Assembly (NCBI GenBank): GCA_017506865.1
Contig: JAFCMP010000536.1
Span: 1,674,001-1,738,000 of the forward strand
Length of the DNA: 64,000 nt
Direction of reading: 5' to 3'
Origin: Tribonema minus
Lineage: Eukaryota; Sar; Xanthophyceae; Tribonematales; Tribonemataceae
Of the stretch, positions 3,001 through 62,943 are shown one piece after another. A program made the position numbers and the translations under genes. Every line of letters starts with the position of its first letter. The stretch's first letter is position 1. The notes under the pieces were generated by a model. That model did not search any database, was not told the DNA's origin, and saw only the letters and a list, made by a program, of their open reading frames with translations.

Positions 3001-5279
3001 ACATGGTTATGGTTGTCTTCATTTCTTAGCCAAAGTGTTACTGGTCGTGTTTCTGATCTGCCGTGGAGCCTACTGCAACATGGTTACGCTTGTCTTCATT
3101 TCTTAGTCAAAGTGTAACTGGTCGTTGTTCTGGTCTGCCGTGGAGCCTGCGGGCAGCCTGCGACAGGTGCACCCTCTCTCCCTGTGCATTTGCGTGTGTG
3201 CGTCTTAGGTTTTTCAACACTGGAGGCGCTGACAGCAGTGCTCCAGCGCCGTGCTCGAGCTTCAACCAGCAGTGCTCAGCAAAAGATCAGGCGGCACACT
3301 TGTAACCACACAGCGCTGAGCCTGTGGTGGTGTCGTTGGCACCTGAGCAGCAGCGCTCGACATGGCGGCGGCGGCACAGCTGGCCCGGCGGGCAACAGCG
3401 TGTGCCGTCAGGTGACATCTTTCTTCAGGGTGCAATGCACGACGCGACGGAGGGGCGGCGGTGCAGTTGCCCCTGCGGAAAACAGCGCGATTCTACAGGC
3501 AATGGTGATGATGACTTGCAACTTCAAAGTGCAGTGCGCGACGCACCTCCAGCGACACCAGGTCTTCGATGTCCACCGCAGGCTTGTAGGGCAGTCTGCA
3601 AGAGCGGTGCGCGATCCGCACGCCGTGAGCGCCGTGAACTGATCGATGATGAGCGTTGCCACCTGCTGAGCGCTGTGATTACATCGAGGAATGACTACAG
3701 GCGGCAATTGCAGCGCAGGAGCATCACCGCCTGATGAGGGCTGTGGCCACGCTGAGAAATTAATTGGATTGCAGGCGTCAGTTCTGACGCAAGGGCACTA
3801 CTGGACGCTGGCAATACAGCTCAGAAGAACAACTGCGGGCAGTATCACACTGAGCGCCGTCTGGTGTTGTTGGTGTTGTACTTTGAGCTTCGGAGCGTTG
3901 TCTTGACTGGCACTGGAGGTCGGCTTCGGCACCTTTGATTCTGAGAGACGATGACAGCAGGCAGTGGCGCCGCAATGGCAGTAATGGCCTGCACAAGCAG
4001 GTCAGCACTATGTAAAATAGTGACTATTGCAATACTGAGGGACTTGGGGAGCTCTTGATCAGCGCTTGAAAGTTCAGCTGACACTTACGCTTGAGAACCT
4101 GATCGGTGGTGCAGCAAGGGGAGGTTTGAGGCTTTGGTGGCAACGGCAGCGTTCTCACACACTTTCTTTCCTTAAGGCTGTCAGGACCATGTACATGTTG
4201 AAGCCTTGGTCAGCACTTACAATGTGCTGACATACCCGCCAACAAAGCTGGAGGCGTCTCCATGCGTGATGATCAGGTTGCGCTATGTGGCATGCTCAGC
4301 GAGTTGTTGGGAGTGCTTTGCTGAGCATCGCTCGCAATACGCCTCATCACACACTCCAGTGCTCCGCATATGTTGACTGAAGCACTTGGCGCGGCGCACC
4401 GCAAAAGGCATTGCAGCTGCCAGCTACTGCATGCGAGCACACTTGCCTAGTTGCCTTCACTCAACAAACTCCCTGACATGCACGCCAGACACTCCCTGTG
4501 TGGGCTTGTGCGCCAGAAACAGGTGACGTCAGCCGCCGCTGCACCCAAGGGATGGCGGAGCGCTGTCATGTACTGCAGCGGACTCATGTGCATACATAGA
4601 TGTGCGCCGCGCCAGAGACGCGAATCTCACCTCTCGCCATGATTGGCAGGGTCCAGATTGATTATCGCCACCTCTCGTCCAAGTGCCCTGCACTCAGGCG
4701 CCAGGCGAAGGACGCGCACTGTTGTCAACAATGATTTAGGCGTAGCATAGAACGAAATGTATCAATAAAGTTTGCACTGAAGTCTTCAACTTGTGGTTTG
4801 CAGAACCTACTCATTCAGGCCCCAGGCTAAGGACGCGATGCCTATGTCAACGATCTGCGTGCTCACGTGACTTCTAATCGACAAACTGATGGCCAGTAGT
4901 CTTGAAACTTGCTTCCTGAACCAGTAGTAACTGGCGAAGGAATGTAGCGCGCTGACTGAGAGGGAGGGTAGCTGCCAAGCGCATCCGATCTGATTTCTGA
5001 CATTGTGGGATCCTGATTTTGGTGATTGATCGTGCAATTCTTCTGACTCCAGCAATTGGAACCTTGATTGCTGCGTGCACGCCACCTGCTTTGATGCCTT
5101 CATTAGCTGCAGAGCGTGCATCAGCAAGCTGGGGTCGCCAAGACTCGTGTTTCAACAATTTCTTACGTGAGGTACTGCGACATCCCGTGGCAGAAAGTCG
5201 TCTTGCCAGATCCAGGCGGCCCCACCACGATCTGGCCAAAGCAAGGCAGCTGGTCCTCCTCGCCACCATCGTCAGCCAT
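62..5279 (-). CDS. GPN2: GPN-loop GTPase 2 (3' end outside the window)
   Basis: Seven exons on the minus strand: 5279-5167, 4687-4631, 3595-3547, 2382-2242, 1611-1536, 705-675 (31 bp) and 149-62; the last ends at a donor, so the C-terminus lies left of the window. Phases agree throughout, giving 185 residues against roughly 310 in known GPN2. Walker [10 protein letters not shown] is at residues 20-28, NLDPAN follows, the family-defining GPN tripeptide is at 82-84 within GLGPNG, and DFPGQVEL spans the exon 4/5 junction at about 116-123. [11 protein letters not shown] precedes the expected base-recognition motif in the missing exon. GPN proteins are cytosolic GTPases involved in RNA polymerase assembly and nuclear import. 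GPPGSGKTT and FPGQVEL favour GPN2 over GPN1 or GPN3. Exon 4 appears to end at a GC donor (CAG|GCAGGT), because only that keeps the reading into VELFTHY. Confidence 0.88.
1943..2008. repeat. Perfect 33-bp tandem duplication
   Basis: Two identical 33-bp units, 1943-1975 and 1976-2008, lie in GPN2 intron 4. Identity implies a recent event. Confidence 0.9.
2360..2560 (-). repeat. Acceptor-junction array, GPN2 intron 3
   Basis: Three diverged copies of the junction that opens exon 4. The real one is at about 2365-2405; others are at about 2447-2475 and 2510-2555. Each pairs an exon-like GGCGTGATGA word with an upstream GCAATCGTCC word. They suggest local tandem duplication of the intron/exon edge. 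Confidence 0.55.
2996..3149. repeat. 77-bp tandem duplication
   Basis: Two near-identical units start at 2996 and 3073, inside GPN2 intron 3. Each begins CTGCAACATGG and ends near CCGTGGAGCCT. No coding content is seen. Confidence 0.85.
4631..4860 (-). repeat. Duplicated acceptor region, GPN2 intron 1
   Basis: The polypyrimidine/acceptor stretch just upstream of exon 2 (4690-4737) recurs, diverged, at about 4812-4857, roughly 120 bp further into the intron. Shared words include CTTCGCCTGG-like and GTTGACA-like strings. The copy is intronic and has no adjoining exon sequence. Confidence 0.55.
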
Positions 5280-5472
5280 AACCTCTCCTATGAGTTCAAG
5301 GCTTGATTTTCCGGACTAGATCTTCAACATCGGCTTGAAGTTAAAAGTTGCAGTTCTGTTTGCGACCAACTTAAGAAGCCTAGGAGCCGTTCTTTGTTGC
5401 CATTTACAGCAAGCAGCAGCTATCGAAAAGCAGCAGCAGTCCCTTTAATCAACTTATCTTGAGGATCTCACC
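5280..5472. promoter_or_regulatory. Shared upstream region of a divergent gene pair
   Basis: Only 193 bp separate the start codons of GPN2 (minus, 5279) and the plastid protein (plus, 5473), so both promoters and 5' leaders must lie here. No clear TATA box is visible. It contains CTTGAAGTT-type words and CAGCAG-rich sequence near the plus-strand start. A bidirectional promoter is inferred. Confidence 0.5.
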
Positions 5473-8400
5473 ATGCGCGTGGCTGCAGTATACGCCGCTG
5501 CTCTTCCGGCCGCCGCCTTGGGCTTCGTGCGTCCTGCGCTTCTTGGCCGACAGCTCAGCAGCAGGAGCACCACCACCAGTAGCGCGTCACGTGCCTGCTC
5601 TATGAAGGTGGACACGAGCGGAGAGTGGGCGGGCTGGGAGTGCCGGTTCTCTCAAGTTTCCGGGCAGAGGATGAGCATTCCCGAGGACTACATCCCCGAA
5701 TCCCTCAGAGAATGGGATGTGCCAGGTGCTGTGGATCTTTCTGCTGCAGTGGATTCGCATTGCATGTGACTGCACATGCACATCTGATTGTGGAAGACCG
5801 TAGCCAGGAGCTGTTTGTTGGCAAAGCGCTGCTGTTGGTTACTGACCTTGTGCAGAGGGGCCGTACCGCGGCTGCACGGCATCTTTGTTCTCTTTGTGTG
5901 TTCTGAATGAGCGTATTCGCTCTCTGTTGCCTGCCGCTCTATGTTGCTACTCAAGTGCTTTTGAACTAGCTTTTCAATGGAAAAGCATTGTGTCACGTCC
6001 ATCTTAGTGCAATGATGGAATCATACGTTGGGCTGCTGCTGACCAAGTCAACTGCTGCTATCTGCGCTCTTGTGAAGCACTCGTGTGTCCTGTACAGCAA
6101 GAGACTCAATGCAGCGTCATCGGCAGATACATCAACATAAGTTCTTTGCAGCAAGTAAATGTGCACTGCCTCGCCCGCTTATGTCACACTCACTTGCCGC
6201 TCACACTTCAAACGGCATTTGTTTGCGCCGCTGCTCGCGCTTGCGCAGTGTGGGGGTTTGAGGTGCTCCACAGCGAGCGGCTCACGACGGGTGCGGGCAA
6301 TGCGGAGCTGTACCGGAGGAGGGCGCAGGTGTACCCTGAGACGGGCTGCGCGCTGGACCATTTGTCTCTGGTGAGCGCGCGGTGCGAAATGTTATTATCT
6401 CAGTCTGTGGACATTTCTCGCTAGTTATTCAGGGCGCAGAAAAGAAGTACTATATGTATTTATGCATTAACTTTTATACTTCCATTTAATTAAAAAATAA
6501 AATACAAGAGGGCGTGCGCGCTGGACGACTTGTCTCTGGTGAGCACGCGGTGTGAAGCCTAAAGGTGGCCTCAGTCGGTGAACGTTTATTGGTAGTACTT
6601 CAAGCTGAACAACTAGTAGTACTATTGTGTATACGTGTATATTCATGGAAGCTTGATAATTCACTTAAATGAAATAAACGATGGGCTGCGCGCCAAACCT
6701 CTTGCCGCTTATTTAGCGCGCGGTGTGAAATGTGATTATCATCTCAGTCTGAGAACACATTTCAAAATTAGAGTGCAGACATTGTGATGCTACTCGTAAA
6801 CTTCGAAGTCCGGAATTATGCATGGAACTATCATAATTGAACTCAATGAAGTAGAAGACGGGCTGCGCGCTGGACCACTTGTCTCTGGTGAGCGCGCGGT
6901 TTGAAGTTTAATGGTGGTCCCAGTAGTTAAATGTTTGTTGATAGTATTTCAGGCTGAAGAAATAGTAGTACTGTATACGTATTTATTCATGGAACTATCA
7001 TATTTCAAATGAAATAAAATAAAAACAGGCTGCGCGCTGGACCACTTGTCTCAGGTGAGCGCGCGGTGTGACATTTGATCATGATCTCAACTGGCAAACA
7101 ATTATTGATAGTATTTCAGAGTGCAGAAACAGTGATGCTACTGGGTATACCTGTTTATGCATGGAACTATCATTATTGAATTCAATGAAGTAAAAGACGA
7201 ACTGCGCACTGGATCACTTGTCACTCGCGAGCGCGATGTCTGAATGTGATGATAATCTCAATTAGTGAACACTGGGGTAGGTAGGGATTCTGCTGAGTAC
7301 GCGTATTTCTGCCAAAAATGTGCTAATTCAGTTTATTTGAAGTATACAATATTTGAATAATTTATCTTCACAGCCATATTTGACAAATCGTATTATGCTC
7401 GCTTGTAATGAATGTGGTGAGGCAAATGTCAGCTGAGCATTCGCCTGCAGACGGTGGCACGGAGGCAATGAACATAAATTCTGAAGACACGCAGGGCGCT
7501 TCTGCGGCGTTCATCCCTGTAGCGCTTCGCCTCACAGCGCCTGTTCAACGCCAGGCCGGTGTTTACGGAAGCGCAGGCTACCACTGTTGCAAGCAGCGTT
7601 TGGATACGCAGCGCGGCCCCCACAGCTGTGCTTCCTGTGTGCTTGATCGTAGTGATTGCCGAAATTCAGTGTGTGCCGTGGTCGCTGCGCTGCAGCGCCG
7701 GTGTTGTGCTGACTCAGTGTCCCCTTGGCGCGTCGTACCTGTGAGGTGTGACTCGCACCCTTGTGCTGCCCTGCGCTCTTACATCAGTGGTAGTAAAGTA
7801 TTTACCACTCCCATGGGCGTGTAATCTCACTGAGCGTTGCAGTCCAATGCATCATCGTCGTTGCGCGCAAAACACAGCCGCCGCCGCGCCGGCGTCCCTG
7901 GCAGCGCGCGACACACATTGTAGAGGGGCGACAGCTTTGCTGTCAGTCGGAGCTCCTCAGCTCGCCGTTCAGCTTCACAGCAGCAGCGTCATCACAGCGT
8001 CGCGCGGCACGCTGCACCCATCGCGCATTCAGCAGCGCTCATGCGCGCCATCCCGCCCGTTTCATAGTGGGGAGCGCAACGACTTGACGGTCAGTTGGAG
8101 CCACGCAGTTCGCTGCCCAGCTTCGATGCCCCATGACATTATGCACCGCACGCGATATCATCACACACGCAGTACACACTCAAAACCGCCATCTCGCCAC
8201 GTTTTTCTCCCGCGCGCGCACAGGAGATGCGCGCCGCGACCATCCCCCTAACCCCCCCCGACGCCACCTTCCTTGAGCTCCCCGAGGGCAACGGCTTCGC
8301 GCTGATCCAGAAGGCGCCCTTTGGCGGCTCGCACACGCTCGAGCTCGTCGCCGTGAGCAGCAGCGATGCTCAGCGCCGCGTGCGCCTGCTGGCCACGGTG

Positions 8401-14055: not shown

Positions 14056-14331
14056 GATATCAAACCAAACAGTGACGCAGCCTAGGCTGCTGCGTTGACG
14101 CAAGCTGTTCGGTTGCATAGGCACCCGGCCTCTCGGCAAGCGCCACATGGCGCACCCCTTGCGTGTAGTGTAACCCATGTCAGCAGTCGGAAGGGGGCAC
14201 ACACAGGGATGAGGATGTACTGGGGAGGAATATGCCATTTGGCGATGTTGTTTTTAAAAGTCAGTGTCAATGCGCATTTGTTCACGCTGTTACCATGTAC
14301 TTTTATTACCATGTACTTGTGTATACCATTC

Positions 14332-14577
14332 AGCAGCGCTCCACATGGCGTACTCCGGCCGTGTCATGACCCACATGGCAGAATCCAGGGGGGGGCCGCA
14401 CATGGAGGAGGACGTATGGGGAAGATCCCGAGATGCCATTTGGCGGCGGCGGCGTTTCAGTGGTTGTCGTTGAGACACTTTCAGACTGTCACACGACATG
14501 TGAATTCCGTACAGCTAGATGCCAATCATCTGGGCTTTTTCGCGCCCTGAGCGAGTTTTAATAAGAAGTACAAACAT
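14332..14577 (+). mobile_element. 5'-truncated LINE copy (3' end only)
   Basis: Closely matches 15621-15862 from CAGCGCTCCACATGGCGTAC to the terminal CCTGAGCGAG and AATAAgAAGTACAAAC tail. Only about 245 bp of the 3' end survive. The next LINE copy begins immediately afterwards in the same orientation. Confidence 0.8.
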
Positions 14578-15862
14578 GCGGACGATCGCCACAGCTGCCG
14601 CATCCCTACGTGCAGCAACAGGTGACAAGCTGGAACATACACTGCCACCAGCGCTAACGCCACTGCAGCAGCAACCACCTACGCAGCAGCCGCCGCTGCG
14701 GCCGACAGCAGGTGGTGGCACTGGTGCGGAGGCTGTTTGCGTACTTGACGCCAGTGCGCTGCAGTTGCAGTGTAGCCTGAAGCGCCCCAATCAGAGTGCG
14801 CTTGCAGATGCCGTCGCTACCGAGCTTGCAGATAAGGTGGAGGCGGACCTGCAACAGCTGCCGCAGGGCACGCAACGCACGCAAGCACTTGCTCGATTCC
14901 GGTCGCAGCGCCACATGCACTCGATCGGCATGGCATTCCTCAACGAGCCCATGTACTCCACAACGGCTTCGTTCCACGGCCTATCCTGGCAACTGGCCGT
15001 CAAACGCGCCATCGGAGTAGAGGAACAGACGACAGGCTGCAAGCTGTGCGGGAAGTCGCCGGGCGGCACCCTGCATGCACGGCTATGTCAAGCGCCACGC
15101 GTCAAGGCGCACGACACCATCGTCCATAATAGCGGCAAGAGGGCCACGTAGCGCATCCTGCGGCAATACCTCAAAACGGGACTGGTTGACGAGGACTACA
15201 CGCCGTTTCTGGGGTCCGCCGGGCCGCCGGGGAGTCGCAGGATGGACATCGTGCTGCCTGCCGACGCCTTCCCGGTGACCGGCTACAACGACCCGACACG
15301 CCACCTACCGCTCATGGTGGACGTTACCTGCTTCGAGGCACAGGTGGCGTCGCGGGCGGCGAAGACTGCAGCAGACCCTGAGCGATGCTGCCGCGACCAG
15401 GAGGCCGCCAAGACTACCCACTATTCTGGTCATTATGATCAGAATTGCTACAAACTTGCCACTTTGGCAATAGGGTCATTTGGCAGCATCGGGGAGCAGG
15501 GGCGGAAGCTGCTGGAGGCTGTGGCGACGGAGTATGCCAGCAGGATGTCAGTGCCCGGAGGAGCGCGCCCTAAAGCTCTCAAGGGCATCGCCCTGGCGCG
15601 CTTGCGCTCGGCACTGTCGGCAGCGCTCCACATGGCGTACTCTGGCCGTGTCATGACACACATGGTAGAATCCAGGGGGGGGGGGCACATGGAGGAGGAC
15701 GTAGGGGAGGACCCCGAGATGCCATTTGGTGGCGGTGGCGTTTGAGTGGTTGTCGTTGCGACACTTTCAGACTGTCATACGGCATGTAGATTCCTTACAG
15801 CTAGATGCCAATCATCTGGGCTTTTTCGCGCCCTGAGCGAGAATTAATAAAAAGTACAAACA
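14578..15862 (+). mobile_element. LINE copy encoding the ORF2 C-terminal domain, one in-frame stop
   Basis: A plus-strand frame runs from about 14575 to 15745, broken only by TAG at 15149-15151. It encodes an Ala/Pro/Gln-rich linker, then a zinc-knuckle-like CKLCGKSPGGTLHARLC (about 15042-15092), RRMDIVLPADAF (about 15236-15271) and IGEQGRKLLEAVATEYASR, features seen at the C-termini of algal and protist LINE polyproteins after the reverse transcriptase. The reverse transcriptase is absent, so this is a 5'-truncated copy. It ends with AATTCCTTACAGC-like, GCCCTGAGCGAG and AATAAAAAGTACAAAC, also found at 33418-33490. The stop suggests a dead copy. Confidence 0.8.
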
Positions 15863-17002: not shown

Positions 17003-17140
17003 ACCATTCCCAACAGCGTGTTCCCGAGCACTATTCCGCCGGGCTGCAGCGCGGTCAAGCCGGGGAACCATTCCCCCAAAGCGTGTTCCCAAGCCGGGGA
17101 ACCATTCCCTAAAGCGCGTTCCCCAGCATCATTCCGCCGC
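17003..17140 (-). repeat. Array at the 3' end of the hemerythrin-like gene
   Basis: The stop-codon region of exon 5 and its immediate 3' flank (17100-17140) recur at about 17003-17047 and partly at 17065-17096. Shared words are AACCATTCCC and TTCCGCCG. Here the array sits at a transcript end instead of an intron. Confidence 0.65.
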
Positions 17141-33417: not shown

Positions 33418-33490
33418 GATTCCTTACAGCTAGATGCCAATCATCTGGGCTTTTTCGCGCCCTGAGCGAGAAATTAATAAAAAGTACACA
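33418..33490 (+). mobile_element. LINE 3'-tail copy
   Basis: Nearly identical to 15790-15862: CAGCTAGATGCCAATCATC, GCCCTGAGCGAG, then AATTAATAAAAAGTACA. Only the last about 70 bp are present, so this is a very short 5'-truncated insertion. Confidence 0.85.
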
Positions 33491-33528
33491 CGACTTGTAG
33501 TACATGCCATATCTCCTGCATCATGCAG

Positions 33529-34177: not shown

Positions 34178-34390
34178 GTAATACCTCAAAACAGCAATGG
34201 TGGATGAGGACTGCACGCCGTGTCTGGATCTGCCGGCCCGGGGCGGCCGGTTAGTAGCAGAATGGACATCATGCAGCTTGCCGACGCCTTCCCGGTGACC
34301 GGTGACCGGTGACCGACTACCACGATCCGACATGTCAACTACCGCTCATGGTGGACATCACCTGCTTCGAGGCACAGGTGGCATAGTGGG
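34178..34390 (+). mobile_element. Decayed LINE ORF2 C-terminal fragment
   Basis: Aligns to 15163-15350: AATACCTCAAAAC, GACGCCTTCCCGGTGACCGG, CCGCTCATGGTGGAC and TGCTTCGAGGCACAGGTGGC words in the same order. It carries a local triplication of GGTGACC (34296-34316) and frame-breaking changes, so it cannot encode protein. Confidence 0.85.
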
Positions 34391-40403: not shown

Positions 40404-40419
40404 CTTGGTGCAGCACCTG

Positions 40420-41869: not shown

Positions 41870-41996
41870 TTTGTAAGCTGCTTGTCAAGGAGATGCCAGT
41901 GGCAATATTGCACTCAGCACTGCGCTCAGGCGAGGGGAAGACAGACGTGTTGCACAAGATTGCCAGTGGGCTTGCAAGCGTAATATCCTGAGGCTC
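41846..41996 (+). mobile_element. LINE C-terminal fragment, opposite strand
   Basis: Reads YVRLGNHTICKLLVKEM and ILHSALRSGEGKTDVLHKIA before TGA, similar to YGRLGKQ...ELAMHSAL in the fragment at 37130-37640. Only the last about 50 codons remain. It overlaps the start of the minus-strand reverse-transcriptase fragment, so the two insertions are inverted relative to each other. Confidence 0.55.
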
Positions 41997-46300: not shown

Positions 46301-49300
46301 TGGATACACAGATGTACTCACCGATTAGCAGCGGGCATACTGGCAGTGCCAAACACATTCAAATATGATGCCATGAGTACCACATTTGAGGCCCTCAATG
46401 GTTGAGTGTCACCTGTGTATCTGGAAACTTCATGTTCATGTTCAGCGTCCGGCATCTGCGTGTCATATATTGCAAAGTGCGTTTCGAACGTTTACATCAT
46501 GCAGCGTCTGACCAGCTGAACACCTCACAACCTTTGAAGTAACTCCGGCACCTGACGCGCGCATCACGCACGGCACCAGCAGTGCGAGCAGTGCGTCCAC
46601 CAGCATAACGCTGTATGGCTACTACAGCGACGTCACACGCCGCTGCTGCACCATATACTGGTCAAAGCTGGCGTCTGTACCCTGAATCAGGTGAAGATGC
46701 AAAAGCAGGAACATGCCTCAATCATCATCATGATGGGCTTGTGCAGGCGCAGCGAGCGCAGCATCAGGTGAGAAGGGCATGGCCTCGACCGTGCACATCG
46801 GTGATTAGGTCTCCATGGCAAACCATCAGACAATATTCACTTGTACGTGGTTGCATAGCTGTCGTGAAGTGCGTCAGTGCTCGCCTGCTGAGCCTCACCA
46901 GGGGCAGAGCGGTCAGCAAGCGCAACACGAGGACGGCCAGCACTGCTTGGCCAAGCGCATCGCTGGCCAGTTTCACGTCCCACATGACTGCGCTACCGCA
47001 TGTATTATGTGATAGCAGCATGTGCCAACGGTGCACCTAGAGTAAACGAAGCGATCAGACTTGTCAGGCCTTTTGCATGCAGAACCAGTGCTGCACGCGC
47101 AGCACCGCCATCGCCTTCGCAAGCGCACTGCTGACAGACACCAAGCCATAAATCCATCGACCGCACCGGTGAAAGCATGACCTCAATCCACGGGGGCGCC
47201 GCATGCATACATCAACTTCTACTTCAACAAGTATATCTGAGCATCGGTGTGCTGGCTTGATTAGCCTCCGCACGCAGAGCGAGCGCAGCATGAGCACACA
47301 GCAGTCCCCCCCCCCCATACACTCCTACTTCTGCCTCAACCAAGTGTACTTCTATCTGAGCGCTGTCACGCACCTTATGGGCGTCCGCAGGCACAGCGCG
47401 CGCAGCACAGGCAGCGCAGGCGCCGTCGCCACCTCCACAGACGGGCCGCCCTGTAGCTCCACACACTGCTCCGGCATCAGCACGAACTTCAAGTTGTGCA
47501 GCGTCGCACACATACTTCCGACTTATACTGCAAAGTGTGCACTCACGCGCACCTGATCGGCCGCCGCATGCACAGCGAGTCCAGCACCAGCAGCGCAGTA
47601 ACCCGCCCAGCTGGCGCGTTGCTCAGAGGCAGTCCACACCCCTAACATGGTGCAGCGCCGCGTGCATACTTCAACTTGAGGTTTTTGCAACCAGTCAAAG
47701 CATTACGCTCACCTGATGGGCCGCCGCACGCACAGCGAGCGCAGCACCAGCAGCGTAGGCTGCTCCTCCACAACCCCTAACGTGACATGTGCAGCGTCGC
47801 ATTTGTACTTCAGCTTGAGGTTTTCACAACGGTCACGGCGTCGCGTTCACCTGATGGGCCGCCGCAGGCACAGCGAGCGCAGCACGAGCAGCGCAGGCAC
47901 CGCCTCCGCGAGCACGTCGCTGACGGGCCGCCACGGCGAGTCCACGCGCTGCTCCGCACGAGCTCACAGCGCTGCGTGCATACTTCAACTTGAGGTTATC
48001 ACGAACAGCCACTGCGCGCTCACCTGATGGGCCGCCGCAGGCACAGCGAGTGCAGCACCAGGAGCGCGGGCACCGCCTCCGCAAGCACGTCGCTGACCGA
48101 CCACCGCGGCGAGTCGACGCGCTGCCTCTGCACCAGCATCACCCTCAAATCATCCAGCGCCGCATATGTATGTACATACTTCAACCTGAAGTTTTCAGAA
48201 CAGCCGCAGCGGCGAGCTCACCTGATCGGCCGCCGCAGGCACAGCGAGCGCAGCACCAGCAGCGCGGGCACCGCCTCCGCGAGCACGTCGCTGACAGGCC
48301 GCCACGGCGAGTCGACGCGCTGCTCCGGCACGAGCATGAAGCCGAGGTCGTACAGCGGGCGCGCGGGCGTGTGCAGGAACGTGCACAGGTTTGCGCTCAT
48401 GGTCACGTACAGGCCCGCGACGGTGAACAGCTCGAGGTTGCGCAGGACGGCGCAGATGGCGGACGGCGCGACGGCGTGCACGACACGGCGGCAGTAGAGC
48501 ACTGCCGCGAGCCAGAGGAGCCACAGGAGGAGCGCGCGCCGCGCGAAGAGGTGGTCGAGGTCGCGCGGCGGCACGCTCCCCGCGCTGCACACGTGCTGCC
48601 AGAAGACGTACCTGCGCGCGAGAGGGGGAGGGGGTTGGGGGGGGGGGGGTGTCGGTGAGGCGATGTGGGACACAAATGGGGCTGCGTCACGTTTCTGGAG
48701 TGGCCGCGGTGAGCGTCACTGAGCGAGCGCTCTTGTTGAAGTTGAAGTTGTGAAAGCGAGCGCTGTACGCCGCGCAATGCGATGCTGTGACGCGTGAGTG
48801 TTGATGCAGGCAGGGGCGCGTGAGGACGCGCTGCGTGGTGCGTCGCCACCTACACATGAAGTCATCGGGGCGTTGTACAGTGAGCGGCGTCGGAAGTCAC
48901 ATGAGGGCACTGCTGCATGGGTTGTCAGAACATTGCAACTGAGGGAGGGCTGTGCTGCGAAGCACGGCGAACTGTTGCGGGTAGCAACGCCTCATGCACC
49001 TGATGTGAGCAGTCGGCTGCTTCAACAGTTGGAGAGATGCAATAAGGCATGCTCGGCTCTGTTGCCAGGCTATCAGAAGCCAAATTTTGTGCAAATATAG
49101 CCTTCGAGAGGTGATTGTGCTGTACTTATGGCATATTACTAGCCTACTTCCATTTGCGCGCACGTGCTTGCTTGTGACATCACCATCACACTGATGACCA
49201 AGTGGCCAGGACAATGTGACTGGGCAGTGATAAATCCTGTATTTGCTACCCGCCATCAGCTCCATGAAGTTCAGAGGCAGCGCGTCCGCGGCGCTGCGCA

Positions 49301-51572
49301 CATGGCTGCAGCAACCGTGTTGTCACATTGATCAGTAATACATACCTACTGTCATTGCTACCCTGCCATCAACTTGATGAGGTTCAGTGACAGAGCGCCC
49401 GCGGCACTGCGCATCAGGCGGCGACAGATCGTGTTGTAGCAGTGGTGGCCGTTGTCATGTGCACTAGGCCATTCCATCTGAGCTAAAACTTTGTTTCTCA
49501 CACTGACTTCTGGTGACCTGCTGGACGTACTCTGGCATTGCGTCAGTGATTCAAGTACTTCGACGTAGCATATAAGCAGGCATTGAAAGGCATACAGTGG
49601 GCGCGGCAATCACTGTTGTCTACATATGCCAATTGCTGCAAAAGCCCAATATACGACGTGGCGTTCTGTTGTCATTCATGTGTGGCTTCTTGGAGCTCCT
49701 CGTTTGTGTACACCGAATTATCATCCGCTCTCTGCTGTGAAAGGCGTGCTTGATGGTCTAGGATACCGTATCAACCATCAAGCATTCTGGCGCACCACAC
49801 GAGTGGCACCGTAAACGGGCTTAGGAATGACTGCAATGATGAGCTGACGGCGCATGTAGGCTGCAAGCTTTTCTGAATGGAATGAAACTGTCTACAGTCC
49901 AAGGACTGCAGCAATCTGCGTGCTGTGGACACATTGCAGATACACTTTTGTTGCGGTGGCCTCACACAGAAGAAGGTCATACGACTTTCCTTGCTGATAA
50001 CAGTACTTGCGCCAACACTCTGGTCTGTTACAAGTTGAAGTGCAGCATGCCTTTACATCTGCCGGTGGTGTCAACCGCGATGCGCTCGGGCGTGCTTGAA
50101 TTCTCAAGACAAATGCAGCTCTTGCTGAAATGCTATGCTATGTTGGTGTAGGCTGTTTGGCAGGATGACTCAGGGTGCATCAGACCACAGCCTCACTGAC
50201 ACCAACATGCGCAAAGAGCTGCGATCCTGCGGAGCTATCTCACGCAGAGCATCAGCATTCAGAGGTGGCCAGGTAACTAACGAATGTGCTGCAGGATACT
50301 TCGAAGTATGACTCGTATATGCCTTGTCTGACGGCAGCACCGTGGCCAGCACGTACTGGCATGGATTGGCGCGAGTGCAGGGCGACAGGTGTCCCAAGAC
50401 AGCGTGCATTGTTCATGAGAAAGAACATAGCTACAGGCTGTGTGGTTCACCTTGTAATTATTGTGATGCTCAAAACGTAGCCAATTACGGAAGCTAAAGC
50501 GATGCAGTGCTGCAGTGCTGCCAATATGTGACAACCTACTTTTTCAATGAGAGGATGGTGATGTATGCAATGAAGCCATGTAATGCAGTGATTGTGTTGA
50601 AACGTGTCAAACCATCTGATTCACGAATGTATGCTGCAGCACTTGCGGACGCATGTGTGCATGTGTACAACGAGACTGCTGACCACTACTTTTCATGACA
50701 TCACTGCAGACTGCATTCGAAGACCACATCAACTTTCCGCTTCCTCTCTCGCCATGTGTGTTGGCAATGTTACCACACCGCCCTAAGCCAATTTGCATGT
50801 CGAACCGCCACAACATTTATGAGTTCAGGTGATGATGACTTGCTCAACAGCTGCCTGAAGCTTGGCGCAATACTGGCATCTTGATTGGGGTACCATGCAG
50901 GCCAGTACCAGCGTGCCGCTGGCAGCAACTGCCATATGCTGTTTGTCCATTGACGTAGGTGGACATTCAAGCGCCATCAATCCATGTTTGCGACCCGCGT
51001 GCATTGCTGTTGATATGAATCTGTCAGTACGAGTTCAACACGTGCAATTCCAGCACTGAACGCCTGGGTACTGTAATTTGTGCCAACAGACCCGGACAAC
51101 GATGTGCCAGAAAAGTTGCCACAGATTCATGGAGGAAACACACCTGCCTGTTGTTTACAGATGCAGCTGATTCTAATATGCATTCACGCAATGTCGCACT
51201 GATAGCTGATACTAGGTCACCAGCGACTCACCAGAGGAAGGGCAGCTGTATAGCGGTGGGAATGCCCACGATGAACCACCCCGCAAACGACAGCAGCTCC
51301 GCCACGCGGGCCCTGAGTCCAGGGGGGATGCCACCCGGACAGCACAGCGTCAACCACTCCCCCTTCTCTATGCCCATAGAGATCTCCTGCGCCGGGCTGT
51401 AGGGCACGTCCAGCAGGGACAGCTGCTGCCCATAGGCGCCTGCTTCGGGATCCTGCAAGCTCTCCAGCTCTACGTCGCCATTCACGGGAGGACTGGCGCC
51501 ATTGCTGGCGCTAGAAAGCCCTCCCCATCCCAGCTGCCTCTTCGCTGCTCCACGTCCAAAGAAGCTGGGCAT
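43333..51572 (-). CDS. Sphingomyelin-synthase-like PAP2_C membrane enzyme
   Basis: Seven minus-strand exons: 51572-51232, 48611-48222, 46283-46169, 45336-45199, 44461-44348, 43922-43888 (35 bp) and 43492-43333. Phases close to 430 residues. The hydrophilic N-terminus is followed by several membrane helices (LLSFAGWFIVGIPTAI; LLLWLLWLAAVLYC; LVSWLRCVALVYFLR; VASVLGFMYVASMCLLAL). Catalytic motifs of the family are intact: CGDLIFSGHT at 307-316 (His315), then KHYTIDIA at 359-366 (His360, Asp364), i.e. HxxxD as in human SMS1. Such enzymes transfer a phospho-head-group to ceramide (sphingomyelin, inositol-phosphorylceramide or related lipids) in Golgi or plasma membrane; the exact product cannot be deduced. 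A charged, cytosolic tail ends the protein. Introns are large, with a seven-copy array in intron 2. Confidence 0.85.
45960..46150. repeat. Tandem duplication of about 88 bp in intron 3
   Basis: AGTAACGCCAACGCCAACTG plus TTTCGCT occurs at about 45984 and 46072, with similar GAGATGTTTA/CAGATGTTTA and GCTGTGCGAGT words downstream. It lies directly next to exon 3's donor but does not copy exon sequence. Confidence 0.8.
47250..48360 (-). repeat. Seven-copy exon-edge/donor array in intron 2
   Basis: The genuine exon 2 end is at 48222. Equivalent exon/donor edges recur at about 48024, 47851, 47713, 47553, 47374 and 47256 (spacing 118-198 bp), each carrying a copy of the coding sequence for LVLRSLCLRRPIR; nearer copies hold about 100 bp of exon. 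Copies at 48024, 47851 and 47713 keep CAG|GTGARC donors. Unit ends contain CATACTTCAACTTGAGGTT. Divergence increases with distance from the real exon. Confidence 0.9.
49255..49445 (-). repeat. 124-bp duplication with coding-like content in intron 1
   Basis: Two copies on the minus strand read RSAADALPLNFMELMAG (about 49305-49250) and RSAAGALSLNLIKLMAG (about 49420-49367). They could be remnants of an exon, but phases do not fit between exons 1 and 2, which join without them as FLW|YVFWQH. Confidence 0.55.
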
Positions 51573-53934: not shown

Positions 53935-54264
53935 CATGAGCATCTTTGTTGAATACATGCATTTCCCCATTCAGTTGCAAGTGTCGCTCATGCACGCCCT
54001 TCTCATGCTGATGCCTTCTCGATTATGCACATGAAGTTTTCCTGGCATGTGGTGACCACACCTGGTGAGAATCCACATTTGTGTGCCTGGCATATCTGTC
54101 AAGTCTTGTCCTGACACTGGGGAATGCTGATCAGTCCACTCTCGGCTGTACACTCTGCGCAGCGTGTGTCGAGCTTTGTCCTATCACTGATTGACACAAA
54201 CTCTTCCGTGTGGCAAAGTTTGTGGCGGAACGCCAAGCGCCACTTTTGCTTTCGCGTGCGTACC

Positions 54265-54375
54265 TGATCGTCAATGCGCATTGAGACACCTTCGAGTTTT
54301 CACAAGAGAGACGTGTAGATTCTGGTAGCAAGCTATGGATCTACCATCTGGGCATTTTCACAGGGTTTTTTTTTA
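54265..54375 (+). mobile_element. LINE 3'-tail fragment
   Basis: GTCAATGCGCATTGAGACAC, TAGATTCTGGTAGCAAGC and CATCTGGGCATTTTCAC occur in the same order as in the tails near 13950 and 14508, ending in a T-rich run. Only the tail is present, within the 735-bp gap between the coiled-coil gene and RPA2. Confidence 0.6.
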
Positions 54376-54669
54376 GTGAGGATTCATCCTTAAGTATGTG
54401 CTCTTGGGGAAGCTTTGACCTCCTTGCAGAAGGAAGGTGCAGGACCAGAGGTTATGTCTCATCAGCCTGAGGTGCAGCACTGTTGTGGCCTGAGCATGTC
54501 GTGCTTGACGACATCCAAGAACTGGTATGAGAGAGGGTTGCAATGATCGACTGAGACTCGTTACAGTCTCACAAATGTTCAACTCTCACTCGCGCACCGC
54601 GCGCGCGCCATTTCTCGCGCCAAAAAGTGCGCCAAGTGCTCGGGCAGAAAACTCACAGAGAAGGCAGCT

Positions 54670-57600
54670 ATGGCGTTCAATAATGGCGGCGGCTTCGGCG
54701 GGGGCGGTGGTGCTGGTGGTGGTGGCGGAGACGGTGGTGGCTTTTTCTCATATGGAGGCGCCAATCCCATGGGAGGCGGCAATCAAGGTGAGCCACCTTC
54801 GCCCTCATGATTACCGCCACGGCCGAGCATGAGCTTCGCAATGATGCGGTGTCATCGCAATTTTTCCTCTTTCTTGGCTGTGCTCAGGCTGTGACAGCGT
54901 GCATGCATAGGTGTGCAGGCTCGCAAGAAGGTCGTCGTCGCGATTCAAATTCGATTTGAACCCAGACTCACAACTTCTACCGCCTGTGTTAGCGGCATAC
55001 AGGAACTATGCACCAATTCTTCCAGCCGAGATGTTGTATTGGCTGAAGGGAGCAAGCCACTTGAAGCCGCAATCAAATATGCATATAGACCCAGGGGCGT
55101 GCCACCAAAATTCAGCTTCGCTAGGCCCATGGCTGGTGCTGCTGAGTCATTAAGCACTGATCCTGTCACGATGGGTGGCTGCGACTGCTCTTGTGTTTGT
55201 ACGTTTTCAAATACAGCCTCAAGATGTCGCGAGTACGCAACAGGTTCGGCAAGTCACTAGTGACAGGCAACAAGTGAGGGATCACAACTGCTGTCATGCA
55301 GCTCCAGTGCGCGTTGAAGACAACAGCTGGTGGTGTGAACTGTTGACGGGCTGTCTGCATTGAGTGACACTCTTGATCAGCAGCAGCAGCGGCACAGTGC
55401 AGCCCTCATCAGCATCTGTCTATACCTACATACTATGCAGGCGGGGGATTCTTGTCACAAGGCGGGGGCACACAAGGCGATGGCATGCTGTCGCCGGGGC
55501 AGGGGCGGCCGTCGCGCGAAAAGCAGTCCATCATGCCCCTCACTATCAAGCAGGTGCTGGAATCGCAGCACGACAACCCGGATGACAAACCCAAGGTGCG
55601 CGGGACGTTGTGGCGGAAGTATTGAACTTGGGTGCGCACTCCAGCACTGCAGTGCGTCATTTTGTCATGAAGGCCACAGCAGACCAAACCGCAAGCCTTC
55701 GCCAGATGCATCTACGTGCCTGTTGCACTGCCTTTGTTCAATCAGACAGATGGTGGCTAGCCCGGCTGCACTGGAGACGATTTGGTGGACCGGCTCGGAA
55801 CTCGACAAATTTGAAATGTGCGGTGTGATTGCCGCGCATCTTTGTCAGAGTTGTAGTGCTTGCATGTGGAGTGGACCATGGACGTTCTGCGTCCGACTCC
55901 AAGTAATCCTCAAGCGCTCTCTGCGCCCCCCTCCCCCTCTTCCCCCTTTCAATACTTTGCACGCTGCGCGCAGTTATAACCTGTACGGGCAGATTCACAC
56001 GTACTTCCTTTATCGCGTATTCACCATTCAGTACCAGCCAACAGATGAGGGACATTATCGTGCGTCGCGGATGCCCACGCGCACCGCTCAACGTACTCAA
56101 TCTCTGCATACATGCCTACCCAGGTGAATGGCGTTGAGGTGACGCGCACCGCTCAACGTACTAAATCTCTGCATACCTGCCTACCCCAGGTGGACGGCGT
56201 GGAGATAGTGCACGTGCGGCTGGTGGGGTGCATCATTGACATCAACGAGCACTCCACGAATGCCGTCTTCAAGATTGAAGACGGCACGGGGCGCATCGAC
56301 GCCAAGGTCTTCATCGAGCAGGACGAGTCGCAGCTGCAGGTCAGTTGTACAGCAGCGCTCGGCGTCACCTAATAATGTGGTTTATCCACCACATCAATAA
56401 CATAGGAATAGTGCGGTAGTAATGGAGCATCTTGGTGTATGTGAACAAGTGCAGCGCGAGCCGCTCTTCATGATCCCCAGTCCTGGGCCAGAAATCACTT
56501 CGAAGATAGCACTGTCCCTGAGCCAGTTTCTTCACAGTGTTACACTCAAATGTGTGCACTACTATTAATTGGGGGTCTGTCACCTGCATTGACAAATTCA
56601 ACCAGCACCGTGACCTCAGCGCCAACGCAACATCCAGCAGCATCGAAATGAACTTCTTTGAACTGCTGGTTTTGCAATCAGGACTACTTCAATACATGCT
56701 TTGAAATCTTAACATGGAGTGTCACTCCATGGCAGTAGGCAACGAAGCACAGTGGCAAAAGGTGGCCTCCAGCTGTGCATACCGGCAGCGGAGAAGCAGA
56801 GGGGCAGGCCATATAACAACCGTGCTAGTCACATGAGAGTGGATGTTCATAGGCATACGAAGGCTGCCATGCCGTCACGCGTCAGGTTCGCAACCGCCAC
56901 GATCGTTGCTCACACCTCCATGCCATCTCTCGCAACACTCTAATGCTCTGAAACTGCTGCCATGCAGCCAGCAGTGCAACGTTGACGTTGATCTTTAATG
57001 ATCAATAACACTGTGGCGTCCTCATTGCTCATGGCACTCACCCTACCCCCTAACCCTACATGCGCGCAGACGGAACGGCGCTCGCGGTGTCGCGAAGGCG
57101 TGTACGTCGCGGTGGTGGGCCAGATCAAGCGCTGGCAGGACAAGCTGCATGTACACGCGTTTGACATCCGCCCGCTGGAGGACACCAACCAGGTGGGAGC
57201 GTCACGCTTGAAGTTGACGAGGGGTCGTCGCGAAACTGACCAAGGTCATGTAGTGGCGCAGTGCTCGGCGGCAGTGGTTGTATGCGCACGCGCGCGACGT
57301 GTGCTTCTTTGAGGGCAGCGCGCAGGGGATATGCATACCCATACATACCGGGTAGGAAGCGTCGCACATTAGTCGTACTTTGACAGTGGCACAGTCATGA
57401 GGGAGGCTGCACATGGATGTGGTGAACGCCGGTGATACATTTGCAGGGGTATGTACGTTTGGGCTTTTGACGTGCGCTGCGCAGCGCGGACGCGACACTT
57501 TGAGTTGACAACGGTACGCGGTCACCGAAGCAAGAAGGGTGCGCTGCTCTGTTGCGGCAGTTTCTGTCTGCTGCAGAGAGGATTGGCTGACCTTGACTTG

Positions 57601-60563
57601 CGAGCCAGTGCAAGTATTCCTGGCCGGTCCATGGACGCGCGCGCGCCTTCACAGCAGCCCATGCTGCGCGCTGCGGCTGCTGACCGCAGCGCTGCTGCCG
57701 CCACCGCGCGCGCGCTCTTGCGCAGCACTCACAGCAGCCCATGCTGCGCGCTGCAGCCGCCGCCCGGGCTCTCGCGCAGCGCAAGCTGCACTCGCTGGAG
57801 GCGATCTACTTGCACCCATCTCTGCGGCCCCTCATGCTGAGCGCTGCCGCCGCTGACCGCAGCGCTGCCACCGCTTTCCCCCGCGCCCCACCCCCGCAGA
57901 TCACGCAGCACTTCCTGGAGGCGATCTACGCGCACCTCCACAACACGCTGGGGCCGCTGCGCAAGGCGCCCGGGGGGGCGGCTGGGGGCATCGGCGGCGC
58001 GGCGGGCGCGCAGCCCATGGCGGTGGCCAACTACGGCTCGCCAGGGTTCGCGCGGCAGGGGGGGGCGGCCCAGCAAGGTGGGGTGTGGGGTTTAGAGTTA
58101 GCGCTGAACAGGGCTGTATATGCAGTTGCTGGGGGAGGTGTAGAGTATGTGAGGGTAAGGGCGAGGGTCAACGTCGAGGTCAGCGGCAGGGGGGGGGCGG
58201 GGCAGCAAGGTGGGGCGTGGGGTCTTGGGTTGGCAGTGAGCAGGGCTGATTGCAGGTGTTGGGGGGGACGTAGCGTGTATGAGGGTTGGGGTCAGGGCGA
58301 GGGTCAACGTCAGAGTCAGCGGCAAGGGGGGGGGGGGGCAGCAAGGTGGGGTGCTGGTTCTGGGTTGGCAGTGAACAGGGATGAATGCAGGTGTTGGGGC
58401 AGATGTAGAGTACATGAGGGTTGGGGTCAGGGTGAGGGTGGATGTTGGGGTCAGAGGCACGGGGGGGGGGGGAGCAAGGTGGGGCGTGGGGTCTAGGGTC
58501 AGCGCTGAGCAGGGCTGCGTGCATGGGGATGTCGGAGGTGTTCGGGGCCAAAAGTCAAGCGTGAGGGTTGATTCCAGTGGCCGTATGAGTGGGGCTGATT
58601 CAGGATAGCGTACTGTGGGATGCGAGCATGAGGTTTTGTTCCAGGAGTCGTGCCCCCCCCTGCCCGTGTGCATGGCGAACTGCGGAGCCGTGTGGTTTGT
58701 AGTGGCAGCGCGCATCCAGCAAGGCCGCATTCGGGGCACAACAATGTCAACAAGCAGGGCCCTGGACTGATGAGTTCGCATTCGGGTGAGGGTCAGCGTT
58801 AGGGTCAGAGGCAGGGTCAGGGTGCAGCCGACTCAACGGCAAGACTCGTTGCGTATTCAGATAGCAGTTAGGCTTGTTGGCTTCCTTGGACTCGCCATAA
58901 CTCGACATCCGCAGGTTTAAAAACTTGAAGCTTCAACCGCTCGTCAGCTTCATACGTCTGTACAACTGGTTTGAACAAGTTGAAGTTACCACTTTCGTCA
59001 GGTGCACGCTAGCCCTGCTGCGCACCACCAGTGCACCGCACTGTATGTACCCCGTGGGCGGCTGTGAGCTCACTGGAAGGCCGCCGTCTGGCTCAATTTA
59101 TGCGCTGCCATCTGTTGAGAGCGCCCCTGGAGTGGTGTCATCTGGAGTCAATCTGAGCGCTGCCGTCTGATAGAGTTGAGCACTGCCACGCCTTCCGCAT
59201 GCAGTTGCGCCAGCTACTGTGGCCTCACGCCGCTCTGAGCTGCGACAACAGTGCATTGGTCTGCAACACTAGCATGATTTATGTTGTACAGTGTGATACT
59301 GCAGTTAGTTGGAGGCTCAACTCCAATCTGAACTGTTGTTTTTTCCGCTTGAGCTACTGCAGGCAACTACGGTGCCTTCAATGGCGGGGGTGGGGAGATG
59401 GACAGCAACAACCTGGCGCCCCTGCACCAGAAGCTTCTCGACATATTTCAGGCGAGTGCACCGGCGCTTTTCAGTCTTTTGCCGCAGTCCTTGAGGCCTG
59501 TGCTCGCAGCAGGGTCGTGAGAAAGCGTGCGCACGAAATAGTGTGTGTGGCCCCCTTCATGTCACGCAGCTCTCCGACGACGTGCCCCTCCACACACGTC
59601 TCATCATGCCCGAAGCTTAATGCACAAACGCCTCAATCAAGCCAGGCGCGTGCCAGCGGCACTTTTGATCTCTGCCGAGCTCTTGCTCGCATTTTCCAGT
59701 GGCAGGCTCTCATCCGCAACAGTCCATTTTCTCGGTAGTCATGGATTTGTGTACTCATTATGTACTTGTGTGTACTCAATGCGTACTTGTGTGCACTGCA
59801 CACCGCAGGCGGATACCAACCCGCATGGCCTCAGCCTGGACTATTGCGCGGACGTCCTCAAGCCTCAGGGGATAGGCTACGATGACATCAGGGTAAGCAG
59901 CGGCGTATGTGACAACAGCCGGGTGCTGGTGCGCTTGAGGTGTGGTTGACATTGAATTGGCCATCACGAAGGCCAAACGGGGACCTCTGCGATGCACGGT
60001 TGTGAGCAGAGTATCAGACTATGTGTCGCTATGGAGGGCACTTCACAATGAAAACAGTTGGCTTGACAGATGGGGTAAGGGTGGTGTGAACAGCCAACGT
60101 ATTTACAGCTGGTTTTTAATCACACAGGATGGCGTTGTTATTCCGGGTGATATGATTGCTTTGAATATCTGATGAACCCGAGAGAGCCGCTTTGAGTTTG
60201 TCAAATGTGCCATGGCAACAGCTGTCATAGTCACGCACCTGCAAAAGCCATGGAGCTTACAGGTGCTGCATGCAAAGCACTGGCGGCGTGTCATATCTGA
60301 TGTGTCAGACAGTGGCGCAAACACTGAAGCTGTGGAGACTCAACGATCGACGTTTGCTTCTGCACAGTCACATCGCGCAATCTCGACGAACGAGTGGGAT
60401 TTACGTCTAAGCATAAGCACACCTCGTTACTTCCCTGATCAACGTCTCCCTGATCAACATCTCATCATTGTGCGCTGCTCTGCAGGATGCGGTGGTCTAC
60501 CTGTCCAGCGAGGGTCACATCTACACCACGGTGGACGACTTCCACTACAAGTCCACCACCTGA
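54670..60563 (+). CDS. RPA2: Replication protein A 32 kDa subunit
   Basis: Eight exons: 54670-54787, 55441-55595, 56190-56339, 57070-57192, 57900-58077, 59363-59451, 59809-59892 and 60486-60563; phases close to 324 residues. A Gly-rich N-terminus (MAFNNGGGFGGGGG) is followed by QSIMPLTIKQVLES, the typical entry to the single-stranded-DNA-binding OB fold (about 75-200): VHVRLVGCIIDINEHST, VFKIEDGTGRID, VYVAVVGQIKRW and HAFDIRPLED. A Gly/Ala-rich linker (about 205-250) leads to a C-terminal winged helix (about 265-324, LLDIFQ, GLSLDYCADVLK, DAVVYLSSEGHIYTTVDD) that binds repair factors. RPA2 acts in the RPA heterotrimer in DNA replication and repair. It is longer than the about 270 residues of animal RPA2 because of the linker. 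Exon 6 appears to use a GC donor (CAG|GCGAGT). Junction arrays occur in introns 2, 4 and 5. Confidence 0.93.
56078..56208 (+). repeat. Two-copy acceptor array, RPA2 intron 2
   Basis: Units start at 56078 and 56143 (65 bp). Both contain CGCACCGCTCAACGTACT, a pyrimidine tract, CCCAG and an exon start: the first reads VNGVEV, the second (real exon 3) VDGVEI. Both acceptors look usable. Confidence 0.85.
57649..57960 (+). repeat. Acceptor/exon-edge array, RPA2 intron 4
   Basis: CTGGAGGCGATCTAC of exon 5 (57915) recurs at 57795, exactly 120 bp upstream, within a diverged copy of the exon start. GCTGACCGCAGCGCTGC occurs at 57679 and 57852, and TCACAGCAGCCCATGCTGCG at 57649 and 57730. Confidence 0.7.
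58060..58500 (+). repeat. Four-copy donor array, RPA2 intron 5
   Basis: The exon 5 end, a G run then CAGCAAG|GTGGGG, lies at 58071 and recurs at 58203, 58339 and 58472 (spacing 132-136 bp). Between them run G-rich intron units with GTTGGGGTCAGGG and GAGGGTCAACGTC words. Each copy keeps a GT in donor position. Confidence 0.88.
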
Positions 60564-61557: not shown

Positions 61558-62943
61558 CTAGTGGCAGTGCTCCACGCGCGCTGCCCCTGCCGCCGCCACG
61601 CCGGCGTCGAAGCACAGCCACTGCCCCGCCGCCCACCCCGCGAGCAGCGCCACGAACAGGCCGCTGTTGAACGTCATGGCGACGAGCATCAGCAGCAGCG
61701 CGAGCGCGTAGCCCGCGGTGCCCGCCGCGACGAGGCGCAGCCGCAGGCGCCGCAGCCGCGGCGGCGCGCCGGCCTTGGCGGCGCGCAGCAGCGGCGCCGC
61801 CAGCACGCCGGAGCCCTCGTCCATAAGCGCAGAGAGGTCCTGCTGCTGCGCCTGCACCTGGGGGCGCGGCGGGAGCGGGCGGACGGGCTTTCAGTGCACC
61901 GGTATGTATGCAGTCGTTTTGCGCCGTGAGGAATGGTGGTCGCACGCAGCTGTGCAGGCCGCTGCTTGAGAATGCAGAGGGGTGCTGCGGCCTTGCGCAG
62001 CAGCGGCGCAGGCAGCAGGCTGAAGCCCCTGGCGGTGAGCTGGGTGAGGCGGTGCTGCTGCGACTGTGTCTATTCTGCGTTGAGTGTCTCAAGCGTACGC
62101 AGTGCGGTGAGTCTGTGGTAGCTGCGCCTAATGGGGCACTGCGCTGTGGCTGCCGGGCTGGCAGCCTCGCGCAGCAGCAGCGCTATCATGCAGTGAAGTG
62201 ACCTGTCCATGAGCACTTGTATCGCTGTTAATGCTGAGGGGCCTGGGAGTGTGCGCATGTAAGCCCGACGTGATGGCCCATCGCGTAGAGACCACGGACG
62301 AATCACAGTTGAGACTGCAGATGACCATCTCTGTGCGGACATGCGCACTTGCACAAGGCTTCTCGGTGACATTGGTGCACGAAAACGGTGACATTGGTGC
62401 ACGAACACTTTTAGTGTTCACGCGCTCATGCAATATTCCTGCCTGATGTTTCGCACAACGTTACACACGTTGACGACGGTTGCTTGAGCATGTAGTTGAG
62501 AAAGGACTGGCCAAAACGGGCACTGACAGCAGCGTGGACTTGACATACTAAAGTCCACTTTCACATCGCCAAGCTTACAAGAAGACAGAACATGCTCATA
62601 TCTGGGAGGTCACACCACTGCTTTTCGATGCAATAGTCACCTGCGCTGCTCTGCCCGCCACCAGCTCCTGGGTGTATCGCATCTCCACGCTCCGGATGTA
62701 GTGGTACAAGACGCACAGCGCCACGATCGTCAGGCAGCTCAGGGCATACTGCCACCTGGTGGTGACGTTCCAGAAGTCCCAGAGTATTTTGACCTTGTAG
62801 TCCGTGAGAGAAGAGAACGTCATCGCCATCCCACCCATGTCCATGTCCGGCATGTCCGGCATGTCAGGCATATCGGGCGTGTGCGTGCTATGGATGTGCC
62901 CATGCATATGCTCGTGCGCACCGTGCATCATGTGGTCGTGCAT
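61558..62943 (-). CDS. Ctr-type copper transporter
   Basis: Two minus-strand exons in phase 0: 62943-62641 and 61857-61558; 200 residues. The extracellular N-terminus is rich in Met and His (MHDHMMHGAHEHMHGHIH, then a tandem PDM repeat and MDMGGMAM), as in high-affinity Cu(I) carriers. Helix 1 follows near residues 70-90 (ALSCLTIVALCVLYHYI). After a cytosolic loop, helix 2 carries the diagnostic MxxxM (M158, M162 in LLMLVAMTFNSG) and helix 3 the GxxxG packing motif (G175, G179 in AGWAAGQW). The C-terminus ends near EHCH, a Cys/His copper-binding tail typical of the family. Trimeric Ctr proteins import Cu(I) at the plasma membrane. The gene converges on RPA2. Confidence 0.93.
61785..62190 (-). 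repeat. Acceptor-side copies in the copper-transporter intron
   Basis: GCGCAGCAGCGGCGC and following words of exon 2 (about 61795-61860) recur at about 61995-62075 and, shorter, near 62170. Spacing is about 200 and 175 bp. Divergence is high, so this is weaker than the other arrays. Confidence 0.5.

Follow-up and report, generated by a model that had tools for sequence, protein, structure and literature searches.

Why do the ends of exons recur, splice site included, in the introns beside them? The question is raised by a 64-kb stretch of the genome of Tribonema minus, a xanthophyte alga of the stramenopiles (C533:1674001-1738000, hereafter the window, in a 158-Mb assembly of 554 contigs), for which an initial annotation described tandem arrays anchored on exon/intron edges in most genes. 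Working from genomic assembly sequence alone, in this one species and over about 300 kb, we find that the observation is largely real and extends beyond the window. The reading we favor, with a probability of roughly 55%, is that the copies arise by short tandem duplications whose breakpoints prefer splice junctions, and are tolerated through use of the outermost splice site.

Three genes on one contig served as references. Deposited T. minus proteins map exactly to each of them, so their exon edges are independent of the gene finder written for this analysis. The first gene, RPA2, lies in the window, and its model equals the deposited protein at 100% identity over 100% of the 284 residues; the others encode P0021, a cyclic-nucleotide-binding protein with 19 exons, and P0028, a histidine kinase with 28 exons. 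Together they comprise 52 introns and 104 edges. Removing three P0028 exons that are themselves copies leaves a clean set of 49 introns and 98 edges, 91 of them usable with 40-base exon windows. At each edge the terminal 40 bp of the exon were searched for in the adjoining 1.3 kb, with a score of 40 as the cut-off for a copy in the clean count. Among 883 pairings of a probe with another intron, 7 reach a score of 26 and none reaches 30, and exon-end probes match other introns of the three genes in 0 of the 883 pairs.

Copies are concentrated at the ends of exons. In the clean set, the adjoining intron holds a copy for 22 of 91 terminal windows, with donors (13/45) and acceptors (9/46) both affected. 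The frequency falls steeply further into the exon, to 11/87 at 20-60 bp, 4/71 at 40-80 bp, 2/54 at 60-100 bp and 0/47 at 80-120 bp (p 0.001 for terminal against 40-80 bp windows). Interior windows that are not exon copies are duplicated in 33 of 367 cases when matched for GC (Fisher p 2e-4 against the terminal windows), which disfavors GC-driven duplication; for all interior windows the count is 73/658. The copies also obey a near-side rule: in 68 tests the near-side intron holds a copy in 21 and the far-side intron in none. Duplication of whole exons, including mutually exclusive exons, is disfavored by the empty far side and by the absence of copies at 80-120 bp, although a few duplication clusters do cover whole small predicted exons. 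An earlier count at a score of 36 had found 34 of 104 reference edges copied, including six edges of the three annotated copy-exons.

The same concentration appears when duplications, rather than edges, are the starting point. We enlarged the sample by 200 kb upstream on the same contig to 264 kb (C533:1474001-1738000), using predictions from our gene finder, which was trained on these sequences, recovers 11 of 14 intron-facing edges of the mapped RPA2 protein and adds a few small false exons. Over the 264 kb, random placement would put 12.9 of the 91 scored duplication clusters across an edge, and 51 are seen there; this ratio leaves out 21 of 112 clusters lying inside an exon, extending over several edges or having the edge between their copies; 28 predicted exons of non-reference genes within duplication clusters had been removed beforehand as likely copy-exons. 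In the three reference genes alone the figures are 17 of 25 clusters against 5.7, with 10 clusters left out and copy-exons counted as exons. The concentration of arrays at exon edges is borne out on this contig, and a process acting in many genes, as the initial annotation suggested, is supported: neither random placement nor simulated uniform duplication with neutral decay reproduces the pattern. An ordinary intronic minisatellite placed independently of gene structure is contradicted by the placement null, the edge windows and the simulation alike.

Beyond this contig, 26 edges with predicted boundaries come from exons overlapping kinesin matches on three further contigs, and 8 of the 26 are copied. 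One more kinesin locus (C101:1042300-1046600) has no predicted exon and adds no edge to this count; one of its kinesin matches has in-frame stops, so the locus may be a pseudogene, or the gene finder may have reached its limit here. A further stretch (C1:50001-60000), with a GC content of 0.715 and long open frames, is probably bacterial contamination and was dropped.

Within the window itself, Tandem Repeats Finder and self-comparison bear out the presence of local direct duplications where the initial annotation listed them. Its eleven edge-anchored intervals fared unevenly, seven holding a copied exon/intron edge and four failing to qualify. Six pass the edge score: 6343-7270 (59), 18708-19010 (75), 23627-24640 (75), 47250-48360 (70), 57649-57960 (40) and 58060-58500 (37). 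The seventh, 56078-56208, has a 63-bp tandem match at 90% with just 15 exon bases in it, and an edge score of only 17. The scores of 2360-2560 (25) and 61785-62190 (24) are within chance; at 20818-21060 (17) the repeated stretch, 20876-21041, falls within the intron, some 40 bp off the predicted acceptor; and 17003-17140 (18) lies at a predicted end of coding sequence (CDS), where there is no splice edge. With seven edges in five gene models confirmed, arrays in most genes of the window was an overstatement. The arrays and their exons are as follows.

6343-7272, plus strand: donor-side array of about 30 bp of exon end, the donor and about 140 bp of intron; shift about 167-177, several copies running into the intron; edge score 59
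6249-6370, plus strand: exon whose 3' end is copied by the 6343-7272 array; ab initio prediction
18705-19069, minus strand: acceptor-side array, shift 132, about 64 exon bases per unit; edge score 75
18576-18768, minus strand: exon with its 5' end (gene orientation) copied; ab initio prediction
23618-24616, plus strand: acceptor-side array, shifts about 167-193 and multiples; by eye, units of intron end, AG and up to about 80 exon bases, partial copies included; edge score 75
24534-24734, plus strand: exon with copied start; boundaries by eye, where the gene finder predicts 24399-24723 instead
47196-48340, minus strand: donor-side array with six copies, spaced successively 117-198 bp apart starting from the donor at 48221/48222; edge score 70
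48222-48611, minus strand: exon with its 3' end (gene orientation) copied; ab initio prediction
54769-60560, plus strand: RPA2 gene (replication protein A 32 kDa subunit), 8 coding exons; reference gene, exact mapping of P0001
56077-56204, plus strand: two-copy 65-bp duplication across the acceptor of RPA2 exon 56190-56339 (15 exon bases); repeat search
56190-56339, plus strand: RPA2 exon; exact mapping of deposited protein P0001
57649-57899, plus strand: intron stretch in which the start of RPA2 exon 57900-58077 recurs in degenerate form; edge score 40
57900-58077, plus strand: RPA2 exon with copies on both sides; exact protein mapping
58052-58523, plus strand: donor-side array with units of about 131-135 bp, across the end of RPA2 exon 57900-58077; score 37

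Other duplications in the window lie off predicted edges, at 1943-2011, 2995-3148, 24766-24867, 45978-46152 and 49237-49437.

What is unusual about these duplications is where they fall and not necessarily how long they are. Pooling reference and predicted edges at a slightly lower score cut-off, 103 of 377 edges have copies, the first at a median distance of 173 bp (quartiles 148 and 221.5, none below 60). Interior duplications have a median shift of 112 (n=27), and the distribution of edge distances differs from these unweighted shifts (Kolmogorov-Smirnov p 1e-4). Since edge-spanning events require weighting by length, and the length-weighted interior median is 192, duplication lengths need not be special; location is. 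An origin in nucleosome length, hinted at by the 173-bp median, is not needed for the same reason, and spacing that preserves the reading frame is disfavored because first-copy distances spread across all three frames. As for the suggestion that introns grow outward from exons, copies do lie outward of the exon and add intron, but intron lengths are only modestly raised: among reference introns the median is 593 bp where neither edge is copied (n=25), 714 bp where one is (n=20) and 646 bp where two are (n=7).

Once formed, the copies decay at a pooled rate close to neutral. Comparing exon with copy in 34 copies (1483 bases, annotated copy-exons included) gives 52 synonymous and 74 non-synonymous differences and 4 stops; the synonymous fraction of 0.413 is what a free copy facing a constrained exon should show (0.412), and coding maintenance of the pooled copies is disfavored on this ground, though the least diverged copies, taken up below, depart from that expectation. 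Splice sites tell the same story. GT/GC or AG is retained in 134 of the 165 copies whose edge was reached. In a separate count over reference and predicted edges together, GT or GC is kept in 78 of 93 donor copies against a neutral 0.81, and AG in 55 of 69 acceptor copies against a neutral 0.78. Mean position weight matrix (PWM) scores of copies match a neutral simulation; the acceptor median is higher in copies, at 5.15 versus 4.05.

Combining these observations, we propose the following sequence of events. Direct tandem duplications, with shifts mostly of about 65-280 bp, would arise often in this genome, one breakpoint lying preferentially near the splice junction, in most cases 20-60 bp or so into the exon, and the other falling about 100-200 bp into the intron. 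Each such event would set the exon end, its splice site and some intron beside itself, within the intron. The mRNA would stay unchanged if the spliceosome keeps to the outermost site (the first donor, the last acceptor), a usage in vivo that we infer. Repeated events would build arrays on the donor and acceptor sides alike. Their intronic copies would then decay mostly without constraint, whereas changes in the true exon would be mainly synonymous. The bias itself might originate where transcription pauses at splice sites: replication forks that stall there, or breaks, could give rise to template switching or slippage. We favor such a cause on the ground that the effect is shared by donors and acceptors and that breakpoints lie within tens of bases of the junction. 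When duplications are simulated with a preference for edges, each taking in 15-80 exon bases, the copy frequency and the distance of the first copy come out about as in the data. In a more specific form, which we put forward tentatively as possible, template switching coupled to splicing or transcription, perhaps with conversion templated by the exon, targets splice junctions and writes edges into introns. If that were true, introns of this lineage would grow outward from exons and bear graded fossils of past edges.

Several observations weigh against a breakpoint preference at splice junctions. First, a simple coverage count shows little contrast, which also bears on the rejection of an ordinary minisatellite: duplicated segments contain 26 of the 104 reference edges, compared with 0.11, 0.27 and 0.19 of interior points in the three genes. 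We prefer the exon-window test because interior points include arrays grown from edges. Second, CDS ends are copied in 3 of 23 cases, too few to claim that splice edges alone are affected. Third, the edge-anchored simulation departs from the data in several respects: intron flank identity averages 0.64 rather than about 0.80, identities of exon part and flank correlate at 0.06 rather than 0.37-0.58, intron windows touching the edge are copied in 8/86 cases rather than at 0.165-0.371, and interior 50-mers at 0.126 rather than 0.204-0.385. Moreover, when flanks are aligned from the anchor, 42% of 156 copies (47% of 43 in the reference genes) have no flank homology beyond the 95% null, though the flank of at least one of them is, by eye, homologous at a greater distance. 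Fourth, the 23 copies that differ by 10% or less carry 31 synonymous and 23 non-synonymous differences, above the neutral 0.41, against 21 and 51 in the others; a neutral mixture would not vary with age, so the synonymous excess of the least diverged copies is unexplained. Finally, no junction motif emerged: the AACTTCAA core and telomere-like and CATGCAT words are not enriched at copy starts, the exception being the AACTTCAA core in the 60 bases before them (0.133 versus 0.080).

Two of these words are abundant in the non-coding parts of C533:1474001-1738000 as a whole, where AACTTCAA occurs 121 times against 15 expected and the telomere-like word CCCTAACCC 54 times against 0.7.

The divergent flanks invite an alternative in which the exon repeatedly re-templates its copies by gene conversion, keeping exon-like parts alike while intron flanks drift apart. 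Between intronic copies the exon-like parts have a median identity of 0.80 and the flanks 0.625 (115 pairs), the two identities are uncorrelated, and indels number 7 in 1085 aligned exon-part bases against 66 in 2581 intron-part bases, which leaves room for occasional conversion from the exon. Part of this contrast has other sources, however. Because exon probes were used to find the copies, exon identity is inflated, and the anchored flank comparison overstated the difference between exon and intron because flanks homologous further out were missed; one seemingly unrelated flank proved, by eye, to be homologous further out. In the 15 pairs with both parts alignable, divergence is 0.098 for exon and 0.194 for intron, indistinguishable from the 1.59-fold difference expected under simple decay (p 0.28). 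The excess flank divergence over the edge-anchored model is unexplained, in part a matter of method. Conversion would also leave the concentration of births at edges unaccounted for. We consider it an unlikely explanation of the pattern.

Survivorship offers a second alternative: tandem duplications might strike introns at random, with those at edges staying visible longer through constraint on the exon. In its favor, divergence in the exon parts of those 15 pairs runs at about half the pace of the intron parts, edge distances and length-weighted interior shifts are similar (medians 173 and 192), and the coverage count shows little contrast. We modeled uniform tandem duplication, allowing substitutions, indels and deletions but only synonymous change in exons. 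The ratio of exon-terminal to interior copying never exceeded 1.47 in 180 sample-sized replicates, the observed value being 2.18, and never exceeded 0.5 across 36 parameter sets, the observed value by that measure being 1.92; simulated mean terminal frequencies were 0.04-0.09 and mean ratios 0.45-0.50, compared with 0.242 and 2.18. The in-exon fall-off between the 0-40 and 40-80 windows is 4.3 in the data and about 2.2-2.4 in simulated means, single parameter sets among the 36 coming close to the observed value. Uniform duplication with longer visibility of exon parts is disfavored, and we regard it as improbable.

The initial annotation also raised a function such as redundant splice sites; in a broader version of this reading, the copies are redundant or decoy splice sites, or alternative exons, held by selection. 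The retention of dinucleotides in 134 of 165 copies, the higher acceptor median and the synonymous excess among the 23 least diverged copies would fit it, as would three copies annotated as in-frame exons of deposited P0028:

-169984 to -169934, -174361 to -174311 and -175730 to -175707 relative to the window: P0028 copy-exons of 51, 51 and 24 bp, annotated in the deposited protein

These three exons equal copies of neighboring exon edges, and the deposited protein consequently contains repeated peptides; if real, they would amount to new introns. Against selection, GT/GC and AG are lost at the neutral rate with mean PWM scores to match, pooled differences are those of a free copy, first-copy distances fall in all three frames, and some copies have stops or broken donors. 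A maintained function for most copies, including redundant splice sites as such, is unsupported, and we judge selection quite an improbable cause. Individual copies may be spliced, and use of some remains conceivable given the synonymous excess of the least diverged 23. Least probable is an assembly artefact joining two haplotypes or noisy reads at exons, for while diverged haplotypes would still align at exons and the synonymous excess would suit alleles, five- or six-copy arrays of graded divergence, copies with stops and broken sites, the outward-only arrangement and similar rates on four contigs all speak against it.

The sequences analyzed hold further features of note. About 19% of predicted donors are GC rather than GT (predicted introns of the 264 kb of C533 and 10 kb of C150), and RPA2 has a GC donor at 59452. 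On the minus strand, 38059-41884 contains open frames matching reverse transcriptase and a chromodomain, marking a retroelement. A 247-bp direct repeat at 91% (14330-14576 and 15617-15862) flanks open frames and is possibly a mobile element, with related pieces at 33415-33491 and 34180-34390. An imperfect palindrome at 30508-30601 matches its own reverse complement at 77-86%.

The pattern matters in several ways. With roughly a quarter of tested exon ends carrying decaying copies, T. minus offers many independent events for study, and these can be used to ask if it is through splicing or transcription that DNA breaks or is re-replicated at splice junctions; intron lengthening and the placement of duplication breakpoints are open questions that they touch. 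Annotators should also be warned that copies resemble exons, as the three in the deposited histidine-kinase model illustrate.

How does this compare with known systems? Tandem alternative splice sites (NAGNAG, GYNGYN) also repeat sites near one edge, 3-4 bp apart; in T. minus the first copy, which takes in exon sequence, has a median distance of 173 bp. Zhuo (2007) reportedly described human introns derived from tandem arrays. An edge-biased, genome-wide pattern of the present kind is not described among the literature titles and abstract openings listed, which is not proof of absence. Introners resemble it in making intron sequence genome-wide, with insertion in nucleosome linkers mentioned in the sections of PMC9860276 at hand, but they are sequence families copied to many genes, whereas a T. 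minus copy is the gene's own exon edge. One introner family spread through many genes is rejected by the exon-end probes (0/883 in other introns of the three genes), and the words Tribonema and tandem are absent from the main text of PMC9860276. In human segmental-duplication genes, internal tandem repeats at exon-intron boundaries can alter splicing (PMC2812944), a likeness of location; that work concerns recent human paralogs and novel introns, and its passages considered here describe no genome-wide breakpoint preference at splice junctions.

Alongside these boundary repeats, the closest likeness is to intron gain by tandem duplication. In the portions at hand of work on potato RdRp (PMC4974935) and Drosophila (PMC2891723), as in the accounts of Hellsten 2011 on ATP2A1 and of Rogers given in PMC2891723, a duplicated segment likewise bears splicing signals. 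T. minus copies fit direct tandem duplication with splice signals, being found on the near side only and carrying GT/GC or AG in 134 of 165 cases. The outcome appears to differ. The cases described in those portions involve a new intron or intron position in single genes. At mapped edges of T. minus the deposited exon structure holds and the copy sits in an existing intron. There the exons apparently keep their arrangement while the edge that was duplicated turns into intron, as seen at about one in four of the edges tested.

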